Positions 1 through 4,895 of a DNA stretch of 64,000 nt are shown here, one piece after another. The stretch is from Bacteroidota bacterium. Lineage in GTDB: Bacteria; Bacteroidota; Rhodothermia; Rhodothermales; UBA10348. The DNA lies in the NCBI GenBank assembly GCA_022567305.1, contig JADFHF010000012.1:1-64000 (forward strand). The letters run 5' to 3'. The position numbers and the translations under genes are program-made. Position 1 is the stretch's first letter, and each line of letters opens with the position of its first letter. The notes below the pieces were generated by a model. That model ran no database searches and was not told the DNA's origin. It was given only the letters and a program-made list of their open reading frames with translations.

Positions 1-328
1 GAATCGAAGCAAATTTTGTTGTTTTAATATGCGCTCCAGCCCAACTCGTTAGCCTTTCACTAATTTGCTTTGTTATTCCGTAGAGAGTTGAAGGATCAAC
101 AGCCTTATCAGTACTTATATTCAAAAATTTTTCTGGTTTATTTATCATGCACATTTTAATCATATTTACAGTTCCATTGATGTTAGTTTCAATGGTTTCA
201 ATTGGATTAAATTCTGAAATTTCAATATTTTTAATCGCAGCAAGATGAATTATCAAATCTACTCCAAAAGATGCCATTTCTAATCTTTCTTTTATAATAG
301 CAGCATTTTTTTTGTATTTATTTTGCAT
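1..328 (-). pseudogene. Truncated SDR polysaccharide-biosynthesis dehydratase/epimerase (Polysacc_synt_2 type), cut at both ends
   Basis: The minus strand is open from an ATG at 328 to the window edge. It translates to the middle of an extended SDR of the PseB/FlaA1/CapD class (UDP-sugar 4,6-dehydratase or epimerase for surface polysaccharide). Visible marks are HLAAIKNIEISEFNP, the DKAVDP stretch and the catalytic YGITK (YxxxK). The N-terminal Rossmann half with the GxxGxxG motif is missing. A TAA lies in frame two codons before the ATG, so the gene is cut at about 328-340. The stretch is strongly AT-rich, unlike everything to its right, which suggests recent transfer. It may continue past the left edge, so the C-terminal state is unknown. 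The family call is firm; the pseudogene status is inferred from the lost N-terminus. Confidence 0.8.
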
Positions 329-339
329 GATTTAGATAA

Positions 340-855
340 ATGGGAGGCTCAGGTTCAACACGTTGGCAGAATTATGAAAGGCGGTTGGCTGTTGAGGATT
401 GCCTCTGCGTGTCAACAACTGACCTGTTCCGTTATCCTCTTCCCACTGATAGGCTGGGTCAGATTGATTGGACAATTCGGCGGACGGGAGGAATCCTCGC
501 CTTCATGTTTTATCAGCTTGATGCGACTGACCTGAACGACCAGAGAATATGGACCAGCGTCAACAGGAATTTTGATGGAGTGATGAAGTCAGAGGAGCAG
601 TGGGTTGGACTCGAGTGGACCGAGTGTAATAGGCATGGAGGCGTGAGGTGGTGGTTTACGTGTCCGTCGCCTTACGGGAGTTGCGGAAATAGAAGGTGTC
701 GGAAGCTGTATCTCACGCCGAATGGATTGCTGCTGTCGTGCCGGGAATGTCATAATTTGACGTACGCGAGTTGTCAGGATTCCCACAGAAACGACTGGCT
801 CCAGCGCATGATCAAGAACAGGTCAGTTGGCCAACATTCAACAATCGTTGAATAG
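340..855 (+). CDS. Mobile-element-associated hypothetical protein with zinc-type cysteines
   Basis: This 171-residue protein begins MGGSGSTRWQNYERRLAVED. It resembles a widespread family of unknown function found on phages and integrative elements (MGGxGSGRW start, VEDCL, then a beta-rich middle). The C-terminal part carries cysteines spaced as in a zinc ribbon (CPSPYGSCGNRRC, then CRECHNLTYAS). Its start lies only about 11 bases from the head of the truncated SDR gene on the other strand, too little for two natural promoters, so the segment boundary probably lies there. The usual basic C-terminal tail looks shortened. The function is unknown. The family resemblance is from memory of the motif pattern. 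Confidence 0.65.
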   Translation: MGGSGSTRWQNYERRLAVEDCLCVSTTDLFRYPLPTDRLGQIDWTIRRTGGILAFMFYQLDATDLNDQRIWTSVNRNFDGVMKSEEQWVGLEWTECNRHGGVRWWFTCPSPYGSCGNRRCRKLYLTPNGLLLSCRECHNLTYASCQDSHRNDWLQRMIKNRSVGQHSTIVE

Positions 856-1608: not shown

Positions 1609-1795
1609 TGACGCAAATGACGCAATGATTTTTGTGATTCCGTCGCTGAATATCTACCTAGTTGGCCTATTCAGGCCACTTTTCTGGATTGATGACGCAA
1701 TGACGGAATTCTTTCTATAAAAAAATAAATAGATATAAAGAGTAGTAGAGAGAAAAAGAATGACCAGAAAATTGCGTCATTGCGTCATTCCGTCA
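1609..1795. repeat. Seven TGACG(C/G)AA octamers around an AT-rich tract: candidate iteron origin
   Basis: Direct copies lie at 1609-1616, 1618-1625, 1693-1700 and 1701-1708. Inverted copies (TTGCGTCA, TTGCGTCA, TTCCGTCA) lie at 1772-1779, 1780-1787 and 1788-1795. Between the two inner groups is a strongly A/T-rich stretch (about 1709-1770). The region ends ten bases from the stop of a D5-like replication ATPase. Iterons flanking an AT-rich unwinding element beside a replication gene is a known layout for plasmid and phage-satellite origins; the assignment here is inference. Confidence 0.5.
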
Positions 1796-1804
1796 CCCCA
1801 CTGT

Positions 1805-3301
1805 TCAGGTAGTCGTTGATGTCGCTGACATGCCGAGTTTCGTTTTCGAACTCATGGGCGACTGAGTATTTGCAGTTGCCTGAATCTCTCGAATAAACAC
1901 CACACGGGCGTTCTTCGACCTCAACGAGTCAATCTGAACAACCTCAATCCCGTGAATACTTCGTAGCATCGGATTAAGGTGTTTCAGCTTGTTCATAAGC
2001 CAATTCGCCGTCGCCGGTACGGCTTGCCGTTTAGGATTCGGATCGGTATCCAGTAGATGTAGCTTTTTTAACAGCTCGGTAGGCGATCCGGTGAAGATGA
2101 TCCCATCCTTTCGCTGACGGCCCTCGATAAACTGAATCAAAACGCCAGCCAGGGGATCCAATTCAAGCTGCTGGGCCTCAGCGAGCAAAAGATTTCGCTG
2201 ATAGACCTTGATAAATGCGCCTTTAGGCCAAGGGAGACCCGGTTCGCATGCAATTACGAATCTGGAATAATCGGCCATTCTCGGAAGATTGGTCGTTTCG
2301 ACTGAACCCATTCGCGATAAGCCGATACTTGCGGCACTGAGTATTCCTCCTAGAACTCGGGGCAGGACTTTTTCCAGCTCAACAGCCATTTCCGACTCGG
2401 TTTTTCGACTTTTTAGTCTTGGAAGATGGATAATAATGCTCCGGCTAAGTAGATCGGGACGCCGTGCAATTTCATCGATTCCATTAAGAATGAGCGGACG
2501 TCGGGCCTTTACTATGTATTCATCGGCATCCGTGTAAAGTTCACGAGTCGCAAATCCGACGCCGGTCGACAGCGTACAGAGCACGTCCGACATCGTGTTT
2601 GACAATCCAGACAGATTGTCGAAGGGAAGAATGTGGTTATGCTGCGCCGCAATCATAAGGTTGTGAGCACCACCAGGAAGGCGACGTACTCCCTCGGTTG
2701 CTGGATCGATAACCGATCTCAGTACCTTCGCAGTAGAGGATTTTCCACTATCCTGCTCGCCCTGGAGAACGAGAATGGGATATCCGCCCTCGGGTAGAAG
2801 AGTGCCAATTAACCAGGCGACGACAAGTGTCCAATCATCTTCTGAGCCGACGTTAATGAGCGGTCTTAGTAATTCAATGCTATTGGCATCACCCTTGAAC
2901 CTCTGCGGCAGCGGTAGTGCTTTCTGATTCGACCCTCGGACGAACGGAACAGGGGATTGATCAAGAATATCCCAGCCCTGCTTGTTCACAACGGCAACTC
3001 GTCCAGACGGATCACCAAGATCCAGAAAGAGCTTTTTATCGTGGTAGGCTATGCGAACAAATACGTCGTGGATATTACCGCCAAAAAGCGCCTCACCCTT
3101 GGCAGCTTGCATAGCTGCTTTTAGGTCATCAGGCTTGATGGTAGCATTGTGCTGCTGATAGTATTCGCGTTGGATCAGCTGTTCGAACCGTTTACTTCCA
3201 ATGGCAAACGTGAGAATGCCGGATTTCAGCTTGCATGTAGCATATGGATGTCCGTCGGGAGTAGAGAACAGCTTCAGGCCGGGGAGAAGCTGTCTAATCA
3301 T
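1805..3301 (-). CDS. D5-like mobile-element replication ATPase
   Basis: This 498-residue protein has a P-loop GEQDSGKSSTAK at about residues 180-191, followed by LPFDNLSGL and the sensor/arginine-finger stretch LILNGIDEIARRPDLLSRS. That arrangement is typical of the D5/SF3-type helicase-primase ATPases of phages, satellites and integrative elements. The N-terminal 130 residues look like an accessory region. No complete TOPRIM or AEP primase motif is visible, so it may be the helicase half only. Its start overlaps the end of the preceding small gene by 8 bases, implying translational coupling. The octamer-rich region lies just past its stop codon. Expected job: replication of the excised element. 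Confidence 0.75.
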   Translation of the reverse strand: MIRQLLPGLKLFSTPDGHPYATCKLKSGILTFAIGSKRFEQLIQREYYQQHNATIKPDDLKAAMQAAKGEALFGGNIHDVFVRIAYHDKKLFLDLGDPSGRVAVVNKQGWDILDQSPVPFVRGSNQKALPLPQRFKGDANSIELLRPLINVGSEDDWTLVVAWLIGTLLPEGGYPILVLQGEQDSGKSSTAKVLRSVIDPATEGVRRLPGGAHNLMIAAQHNHILPFDNLSGLSNTMSDVLCTLSTGVGFATRELYTDADEYIVKARRPLILNGIDEIARRPDLLSRSIIIHLPRLKSRKTESEMAVELEKVLPRVLGGILSAASIGLSRMGSVETTNLPRMADYSRFVIACEPGLPWPKGAFIKVYQRNLLLAEAQQLELDPLAGVLIQFIEGRQRKDGIIFTGSPTELLKKLHLLDTDPNPKRQAVPATANWLMNKLKHLNPMLRSIHGIEVVQIDSLRSKNARVVFIREIQATANTQSPMSSKTKLGMSATSTTT

Positions 3302-3620
3302 TGTTTGTCGCCGTTTTTCGAAATGGTGAATAGGTTTTCAACCAGTGAAGGATGGGACCGTCTTGATGAAGAAGATCCGGTAACGATTCTCCGAGCTGAC
3401 GTAATTCCGACTGTCGCTCATATAGGGATAAACTGAAGTCTGAAAACGATAACCAGCGCGATAGTGGTTCACGTTTGCAGGTGTAGAGTTGTACGTGGAG
3501 GTCATCGCCGTATCTAGCCGTGACTCTATATTTACCGCCGCTCATCCTTCCAATATGGGCATAATTGACCCCGATATTTCCGGGATCGAAACATAGATCT
3601 GTATTATATTCTGGTGTCAT
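3294..3620 (-). CDS. Small mobile-element protein of unknown function
   Basis: This 108-residue protein starts MTPEYNTDLCFDPGNIG. I recognise no family. It overlaps the start of the D5-like ATPase gene by 8 bases on the same strand, and in many integrative elements a small protein is coupled to the replication ATPase this way, so a replication accessory role is possible. Composition is ordinary, with no signal peptide or membrane segment. The Shine-Dalgarno is weak. Confidence 0.5.
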   Translation of the reverse strand: MTPEYNTDLCFDPGNIGVNYAHIGRMSGGKYRVTARYGDDLHVQLYTCKREPLSRWLSFSDFSLSLYERQSELRQLGESLPDLLHQDGPILHWLKTYSPFRKTATNND

Positions 3621-3704: not shown

Positions 3705-3935
3705 CTAACCAATGACTGGCTCAACAGGATTGCGCATCTGGTACTCACGGAGGTCCTTCTCTAAGAAGAACACCCTCTTCCCGCCAGGCTTGTAATGCCG
3801 AATTTGTTGGCGAGAAGTGAGTTTGTAGAGATAGCTAGTTGAGATATCCAAGTAGCGCGCTGCTTCGTTAAACGTGAGCGGTTTGGACTGTTCGGTAGAC
3901 AAAATTGAGTCACCGAAGTGTCGTCGTTGCGGCAT
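3705..3935 (-). CDS. Excisionase-type helix-turn-helix DNA-binding protein (HTH_17)
   Basis: The C-terminal half matches the MerR-like excisionase fold: LTFNEAARYLDISTSYLYKL (helix-turn-helix), then the wing PGGKRVFFLEKDLREYQM. Such proteins (Xis, AlpA-like) direct excision or regulate element genes. The ATG at 3935 gives 76 residues, close to the family size. A TTG at 4058 that overlaps the upstream gene's TGA would add 41 residues of unremarkable sequence and cannot be excluded. It sits in the same-strand cluster with the replication ATPase. No integrase is present next to it. Confidence 0.7.
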   Translation of the reverse strand: MPQRRHFGDSILSTEQSKPLTFNEAARYLDISTSYLYKLTSRQQIRHYKPGGKRVFFLEKDLREYQMRNPVEPVIG

Positions 3936-4054
3936 GACTTGCACCGTGGATTGATTTTTGTCGATTTCAGGTGCAAAGATGGGAAGAGAAGTGCAGCCGC
4001 GATATAAGACAGAACTGTACCGGTACAGTGTTTGAAACCAATCGAAATCTCTGA

Positions 4055-4615
4055 TCAATCGTCGCCTGAACCGATCTCGTTTAACTGATCCAATAGGGAT
4101 TCGATGTCAGAGGCGCCGTGGGGTTTTCCCTCACGATTACTGAGATATTGAATTTTTTGATTGGAGAGCTGTTTTCTATCGAATGCCGAGCCGGTCTTCT
4201 TGACAAACATTTTAGAAATCTTCGACCAGATCTTATCCCCATCCCAAGTCTCAGATATTAATCCTCGCGCGAGGAGTTCTTCGAATAAGAATGCAAGCTG
4301 CCGTTCACTGCCTTGCCATTTAATCGGCTCGAATTCAGCAGTGCTCGTTACTGCACTTCTCGGGATCGACTCCCGAATTGCAAGCAGACCCAGCTGGCCG
4401 TCAATAAATTCGGCTAGCTCATTAGCGTGGTTCTCCAATCCACCTAGTCCCCATCCCTTCCGTGGATTTTTCCGGCACCAGTCGACTAACGCGACTCTTA
4501 CGGTATTCAGGAACTCTCGTTTTCTTTTGACATCGACAATTTGATTAAGACTATCTCTGACACTTTTGATATCAGGAATGGTTGTCCAATCAGTTACAAT
4601 ATGGCCGCCGCTCAT
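4055..4615 (-). CDS. Mobile-element hypothetical protein, faintly RteC-like
   Basis: This 186-residue soluble protein has a tryptophan-rich middle (VALVDWCRKNPRKGWGLGG). Its C-terminal stretch (KWQGSERQLAFLFEELLARG ... IWSKISKMFVKKTG ... RKQLSNQKIQYLSN) recalls the C-terminal region of RteC-like regulators and related Bacteroidota element proteins. I am not sure of that resemblance. It is the first gene of the minus-strand cluster that runs through the HTH protein to the replication ATPase. The Shine-Dalgarno is weak. Confidence 0.5.
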   Translation of the reverse strand: MSGGHIVTDWTTIPDIKSVRDSLNQIVDVKRKREFLNTVRVALVDWCRKNPRKGWGLGGLENHANELAEFIDGQLGLLAIRESIPRSAVTSTAEFEPIKWQGSERQLAFLFEELLARGLISETWDGDKIWSKISKMFVKKTGSAFDRKQLSNQKIQYLSNREGKPHGASDIESLLDQLNEIGSGDD

Positions 4616-4677: not shown

Positions 4678-4762
4678 GTCCCAGGTTTCATCGTACAATC
4701 ACCAAGTTCAGTAACCACTAACCTGGGACATCTGACATCGATGGGGTACATAATGGGGTACA
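4678..4762. repeat. 10-bp inverted repeat plus 10-bp direct repeat beside tRNA-Met; possible recombinase arm sites
   Basis: GTCCCAGGTT at 4678-4687 is mirrored by AACCTGGGAC at 4720-4729. Just beyond it, ATGGGGTACA occurs at 4741-4750 and 4753-4762 (period 12). They lie between the last element gene (start 4615) and the 3' end of the tRNA (4822), where an integrase or excisionase would bind the attachment region. A role as promoter or operator for the cluster is the alternative. Confidence 0.4.
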
Positions 4763-4821
4763 CACTCTGCGCTTCTCCCAACAAAAAACCCGCCTTGGAT
4801 CACTCCAAAACGAGCCTAGCG

Positions 4822-4895
4822 TGGCGAGAGGCAGGATTGAACTGCCGACCTTCGGGTTATGAATCCGACGCTCTAACCTTCTGAGCTACCTCGCC
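4822..4895 (-). tRNA. tRNA-Met (CAU)
   Basis: The minus strand folds as a cloverleaf. The acceptor GGCGAGG pairs with TCTCGCC (one G-T), the D-arm contains GCTCAG...GAGC, and the anticodon loop is TTCATAA with CAT. The T-arm is GGCAG-TTCAATC-CTGCC, with discriminator A and no encoded CCA. The anticodon stem has one inner A-C mismatch. Loop and arms fit elongator methionine tRNA; a tRNA-Ile2 with a modified CAU cannot be excluded from sequence alone. The mobile region abuts its 3' end. Confidence 0.9.

Follow-up and report, generated by a model that had tools for sequence, protein, structure and literature searches.

A candidate iteron-type replication origin beside a predicted D5-family helicase gene in a bacterium of the class Rhodothermia

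The locus

The stretch of DNA analysed here (the window, 64,000 nucleotides at the start of a contig from a Bacteroidota bacterium of the class Rhodothermia) carries near its left end a compact array of short repeats, next to the gene for a D5-like ATPase and followed by several small genes and a tRNA-Met gene (Table 1). An exact octamer scan of the window agrees with an earlier sequence-only reading in finding seven TGACG(C/G)AA octamers, four in one orientation (starting at 1609, 1618, 1693 and 1701) and three inverted (1772, 1780 and 1788), with the strand order ++++--- and starts spaced 8 or 9 bases apart within the clusters. The A/T-rich tract noted in that reading does lie within the array, and its 63 bases, from the inner pair to the right triplet, are 78% A+T, as against 48% window-wide, and 71% purine. 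The same reading had placed the array ten bases from the ATPase gene, a fair description of the 9 bases that separate the last octamer from the stop codon; it left unstated that the gene is on the minus strand, and because of this the array is 3′ (downstream) of it.

The octamer occurs 11 times in the window, compared with 6.1 expected, and 7 of the 11 fall inside 187 bases; when the whole window was shuffled 300 times with its dinucleotide content kept, the top 187-base cluster held one octamer (277 shuffles) or two (23). When the 64 kb are scanned in 250-base segments, the array region is also the richest in any repeated 6-mer. We confirm that the array is real and far above chance.

Table 1. 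Features at the left end of the window (strand given as + or -, or as a point where neither applies)
Feature	Position	Strand	Basis
ORF with a homologue adjoining the ATPase in another element (G061)	340..855	+	E 3e-5
Candidate origin, seven-octamer array	1609..1795	.	octamer scan, shuffles, alignment with three other copies
Left outer octamer pair, starts 9 apart	1609..1625	+	conserved in alignment of copies
Degenerate inverted octamer TTCCGTCG, left spacer	~1638..1645	-	read from sequence
Small hairpin GGCCT-ATTC-AGGCC, left spacer	~1664..1677	.	read from sequence
Inner octamer pair, starts 8 apart	1693..1708	+	octamer scan
A/T-rich, purine-rich tract, candidate unwinding element	1709..1771	.	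composition; conserved in aligned copies
Right outer octamer triplet, period 8	1772..1795	-	octamer scan
D5-like AAA+ helicase, 498 aa, candidate initiator	1805..3301	-	ORF; predicted model
ORF, 108 aa, no family above cut-off	3294..3620	-	Pfam/PHROGs/NCBIfam scans
HTH_17 protein, excisionase-like	3705..4058	-	family scans
ORF, 186 aa, no family above cut-off	4055..4615	-	family scans
GGGGTAC-N5-GGGGTAC, probable integrase arm site	4743..4761	+	whole-assembly count
tRNA-Met, attachment site, 3′ end toward element	4821..4895	-	tRNA search; relatives compared

The predicted helicase

The ATPase gene is an intact open reading frame, and its product has no match in Pfam, PHROGs or NCBIfam. Despite this, the predicted fold agrees with its description as D5-like: an AlphaFold2 model built on an alignment (A4) of 17 window and locus proteins, with a mean pLDDT of 82.8, has as its Foldseek neighbours the D5-family helicases mpox E5, vaccinia D5, phage NrS-1 and SaPI5 PriRep1. 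The top VIA-align match is the SaPI5 primase-helicase 7om0 (Z 18.5, rmsd 5.1, 361 residues, within residues 1-459 of the model); the SaPI5 primase-helicase 7ola aligns over 357 residues, and vaccinia D5 (Z 16.4) and SCCmec Cch (12.8) rank lower. The assignment to the D5-family AAA+ helicase fold is borne out by the model, in which the C-terminus (last 120 residues) looks winged-helix-like in its secondary structure.

Most relatives in the class carry a C-terminal PF tail, which the window helicase does not have. An acidic stretch followed by PF (e.g. EDDEDEAPF) ends the helicases of loci L048-L056 and L079-L086, and tails of this type occur at 15 of 22 class and phylum loci, 2 of 104 loci of a broader set and none of 13 plasmid and phage loci. 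Such ends resemble the tip of bacterial SSB; a literature search for SSB-like tails on element helicases returned nothing relevant, and one for virulence-associated E origins returned nothing. No primase family was recognised among the seven window proteins scanned, the element being cut by the contig start. Because no primase was found in the part of the element that is seen, and its helicase lacks the tail, the window copy may be incomplete.

Integration at tRNA-Met

To the left of the array, the homology of the first ORF in Table 1 suggests that the element continues in that direction, where it passes out of view because the contig begins at window base 1. An A/T-rich open frame, cut by the contig end, occupies window positions 1-328. 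To the right, comparison with relatives indicates that the tRNA-Met gene is the integration site. All 5 relatives fetched keep the order amidase, actin-like gene, tRNA-Met, delta′; in them the tRNA and the actin-like gene are 0.1 to 5.4 kb apart, and the element genes have no match; in the host genome delta′ and tRNA-Met are on the window contig (C57) and the actin-like gene is on C107. Exactly two copies of GGGGTAC-N5-GGGGTAC exist in the 3.76-Mb assembly, both at tRNA-Met-linked ends, the second being on contig C100, at the start of an integrase region and next to the tRNA, and this motif is probably an integrase arm site. C100 has a full-length integrase ORF that shares the arm site with the window, where no integrase adjoins the helicase, and this contig ends inside tRNA-Met-like sequence with 28 bases identical to the window tRNA-Met. 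In a related genome, G006, about 255 bases (tRNA-Met and the DNA that follows it) are directly repeated, with one copy by delta′ and the other by an integrase and an array.

The tRNA-Met site, the probable arm sites and the empty site in relatives support the earlier description of the locus as part of a mobile element. These sequences are best explained if one element at tRNA-Met has both the helicase end and the integrase end, or if each end is part of its own element, the two being of the same type and both inserted at tRNA-Met. No joined map of C57, C100 and C107 was obtained: comparison of five contig ends gave no common k-mer of 15 or more, and tRNA-Met has no 15-base match in the 29 kb at the C107 end. 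We considered a misassembly of C57 and C100 through the array and rejected it, since identity between their arrays is only about 72%. No gene for packaging interference or helper hijacking was recognised among the few genes scanned in this incomplete element. Elsewhere in the host genome (G000), a TOPRIM primase remnant lies by tRNA-Ser (C59, 1470-1697; L140) and is perhaps a trace of another such element.

Copies of the array in the host family

A sequence model (R1), built from four copies of the array and run on the class genome set, recovers the array complete five times, in the window, on C100 of that genome and in G005, G012 and G006 (four genomes in all), and as fragments at C89 of the window's genome and at G005:C83; matches with E of 1e-4 and above are probably noise. 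The array is kept whole in C100, G005 and G012, with about 69% column identity in the alignment. There the place of the degenerate octamer is taken by TTCCGTCA in the C100 and G005 copies, and the spacer hairpin is recognisable in those of C100 and G012, not in that of G005.

On C100 and in G006 the array immediately follows, on the 3′ side, one of two related integrases (63% identical) that adjoin tRNA-Met, with no helicase in the sequence seen, and the arrays at G005:C101 and G012:C15 are solo, intergenic copies with neither helicase nor integrase. The complete solo array at G005:C101 (L023) has a Ser/Thr kinase gene on one side and an amidohydrolase gene on the other, both identified by eye. 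These helicase-free copies would be either remnants or units replicated in trans, and they are the main fact that a pure account of helicase-linked origins must explain. On C100 a short ORF near the array (L012:10712-11278) matches only the target-recognition domain of MmeI.

At G000:C89:61377-61451 and G005:C83:4585-4653 a partial array precedes a junction between the beginning of a kinase gene and the 3′ half of a tRNA-Leu. We rejected the idea that contig C89 is chimeric, since G005:C83 has the same junction, and this junction, common to two genera, is probably an old tRNA-Leu insertion. Two further candidates proved not to be arrays: at L022 (G095) there is one isolated octamer pair before a gene, and the 18-mer TGACGCAAATGACGCAAT gave two single matches in viral_contigs, both within coding DNA.

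The state of these copies bears on whether the window array is a relic, that is, a true origin by descent in a decayed element that in this strain no longer excises or replicates, which is compatible with its being an origin. We consider this a real possibility, somewhat short of an even chance: it would fit a window that has no integrase beside the helicase, no primase found in the part seen and no PF tail on the helicase, as well as the broken reading frame of the G006 integrase and the degenerate partial arrays at C89 and G005:C83, but the helicase ORF of the window is intact, its octamers are uncorrupted and the integrase ORF at the other tRNA-Met-linked end, on C100, is full-length.

Arrays behind homologous helicases

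The helicase is present in 8 of 148 relatives, the window's genome counted, and when any part of an alignment (A2) was allowed to match, the primase half included, 41 of 244 genomes of the class and 53 of 394 of the phylum had matches. At 22 helicase-core loci (12 in the class, 10 in the phylum) we counted 8-mers with at most one mismatch, on either strand, within 300 nt, and passed a locus that exceeded the best of 25 shuffles by 2 or more. Arrays 3′ of the gene pass at 8 of the 12 class loci, the window included, and at none of the 10 more distant phylum loci by the same 8-mer score. As to the class loci that do not pass, the contig at L051 stops 58 nt past the stop codon, with three copies of one word visible, L057 has five GTCGTCA words just past its stop codon, L056 is degenerate by eye and L010 is distant. 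The words differ by element (TGCAAG at L053 and L055, GGCGGAC at L052 and L011, GGTGAC at L049, CCGTCC at L050, GTGACG at L048), and close relatives have one in common, the helicases of L052 and L011 being about 88% identical. A second array, of another 8-mer (CGTCAGAT type), is found in G042 (L016:11171-11427) a few hundred bases behind the first, in the apparent tail of a lost helicase gene.

The sequence-only reading had expected the same octamer beside orthologous ATPases and its absence there to count against an origin. The first part did not hold, in that the exact octamer TGACG(C/G)AA was not found beside ATPases outside the host family, where the word differs; what is conserved is the type of array and its inverted arrangement, in many cases together with a GACG core, and we therefore judge the test of octamer absence to have been wrongly framed.

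A tblastn search with the helicase gave 28 plasmid and 2 phage records. For 13 of the 22 listed, 7-mers were counted from -400 to +700 of the stop codon, with a pass at the shuffle maximum plus 2 or more; 7 of the 13 pass, or 4 of the 13 with a shorter region of the 300-nt type. Chlorohelix has 12 copies of GCGTCAC at +9 to +270 of the helicase stop, two Streptomyces plasmids have 14 and 13 copies of the same word, NBC_01383, pSTS2 and pFP11 pass the 7-mer count, and the GC-rich phage Zeta1847 does so doubtfully. Several free plasmids have 9-14 copies of an inverted word just 3′ of the helicase homologue, and six of the 13 records, including the archaeal pH6Ac, show no array by the 7-mer count.

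Single-protein helicase scans of genome_contigs and viral_contigs found no relative, whereas alignment searches did, and 80 of the 310 confirmed genome_contigs loci together with 80 of the 162 viral loci were reduced to a broad set of 104 at 80% identity. Inverted arrays of 8-9-mers are present in 40 of 102 testable 3′ regions, as against none of the 103 gene bodies and none of the 94 upstream regions, and were not detected in 62 of the 102. By their record titles the positives include Rhodobacter, Acidobacteriota, Bacillota, Rubrobacter, Planctomycetota and Methylovulum. All 40 have the word in both orientations, 9 is the commonest spacing, and in 20 the array lies wholly within the helicase reading frame. 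The best word contains GACG or CGTC in 27 of the 40 positives, compared with 19 of 62 negatives, 11 of 103 gene bodies and 5 of 94 upstream regions; the word varies between elements but the core recurs, and the TGACG(C/G)AA of the window has it. Among neighbours in the same orientation 7-11 bp apart, exactly 9 bp is found in 91 of 120 in-frame and 48 of 78 outside (Fisher p 0.039), a count over the 40 positives plus 8 hand-chosen class loci in which neighbours are not independent and L053 and L235 are apparently the same contig, so that a reading-frame constraint on the 9-bp period is suggestive only.

Such arrays are linked to the 3′ end of genes for this family of helicases, and the occurrence of like arrays behind homologous ATPases in integrated elements and plasmids, with none in control regions, supports the origin first proposed for the window array. 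We hold that the array is very probably the replication origin (ori) of a tRNA-integrated mobile element. It could instead be a dispersed non-coding repeat (MITE-like or a structured RNA) that lies beside the helicase by chance, and in its favour would be that the family has five full copies spread over four genomes, that two of these copies are solo and intergenic, and that the outer clusters resemble terminal inverted repeats. We find this highly improbable, however, as copies are very few (two full and a fragment in the host genome) and a wandering repeat would not account for one layout, with changing words, behind members of a single helicase family in different phyla.

Comparison with known origins

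The closest likeness is to the SaPI elements of S. aureus, whose SaPI5 PriRep1 and SaPIbov1 Rep are self-loading AAA+ helicases; the predicted fold of the window protein is that of SaPI5 (Z 18.5), and the SaPI iteron origin lies directly downstream of the helicase gene, as the window array does. In SaPIbov1, from the 2012 work of Ubeda, iterons reportedly flank both sides of an A/T-rich stretch, and the window has repeats on either side of its own, at 1709-1771. According to a study of these proteins, the C-terminal domain of SaPI Rep recognises iterons directly downstream of its own gene, and that of SCCmec Cch2 likewise binds repeats that closely follow the gene encoding it (eLife 2020, PMC7581432). 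However, residue identity with SaPI5 in the structural alignment is 9%, the window protein has no fused primase, the host phylum is another, and an array of the window type also stands behind an integrase. The SCCmec Cch2/CCPol-MP operon, as described there, shares the D5-type helicase and the repeats just downstream of its gene, but has three 5-nt iterons where the window has seven 8-mers. A satellite origin of another initiator family is treated in a further paper (NAR 2019, PMC7145576).

Among free replicons, the Streptomyces theta plasmid pFP11 encodes a homologue of the window helicase (27.7%, E 2e-40) and has an AGGGACG array at +214 to +671 of the helicase stop. Plasmid pWTY27 has a primase-polymerase, a RepA of 522 aa and a region of 300 bp that holds five 8-bp repeats, five inverted 7-bp repeats and A/T-rich regions; gel shift and footprint experiments put RepA on this repeat region, within the minimal replication locus, and the same binding is cited for pFP1 and pFP11 (BMC Microbiol 2012, PMC3583192). 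Unlike the window element, pFP11 and pWTY27 are free plasmids with an adjacent primase-polymerase, and pWTY27 is likened to it here by its published description.

These plasmids also bear on the possibility that the window array serves not as an origin but in partition, as a centromere, or in the control of neighbouring genes, as an operator. Arrays of inverted repeats also serve partition and repression, and several Streptomyces plasmids have theirs between the helicase and parA. There is, however, no parA found beside the window array, and arrays of this kind come where the helicase gene ends, or fall within it in half of the broad-set positives, and do not stand at a promoter of that operon. 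Together with the binding of RepA to such an array in the minimal replication locus of pWTY27 (PMC3583192), this leaves partition or operator function with very little probability.

Iterons within a coding sequence have a precedent too. The ori of phage lambda lies inside gene O, with its iterons in the coding sequence of the initiator, as they do in 20 of the 40 positive helicase relatives, but the lambda initiator is of another family and the window array is outside its gene. By analogy in fold, position and layout, we suggest that the window array works like a SaPI or plasmid iteron origin.

Proposed mechanism and implications

We propose that the helicase would bind the octamers through its C-terminal winged helix, and that complexes on the inverted outer clusters would hold the intervening DNA, in which the A/T-rich tract would melt. 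Two helicase hexamers could then load and unwind in opposite directions, with synthesis primed by host or element proteins.

It is conceivable, though we think it rather unlikely, that one origin design extends across phyla, with outer groups of 2-3 words 9 bp apart, spacers of about 45 bp and a mixed inner group, the words often having a GACG core and otherwise being element-specific, and half of the arrays lying inside the helicase frame. If this were true, the word would be a readable specificity code, and integrase-origin units such as those of C100 and G006:C66 would be mini-elements that depend for their replication on a helicase of the same word acting in trans.

Literature searches found no described replicon of this type for Rhodothermia, and the locus offers a concrete candidate pair of origin and initiator for an integrative element in this class. 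The arrangement is of a known kind, here in a new bacterial group, and the family-wide pattern may outweigh the single locus: the origins of many uncharacterised D5-helicase elements can be located from sequence, where the helicase gene ends, and the specificity between initiator and origin thereby becomes directly testable by word swaps.
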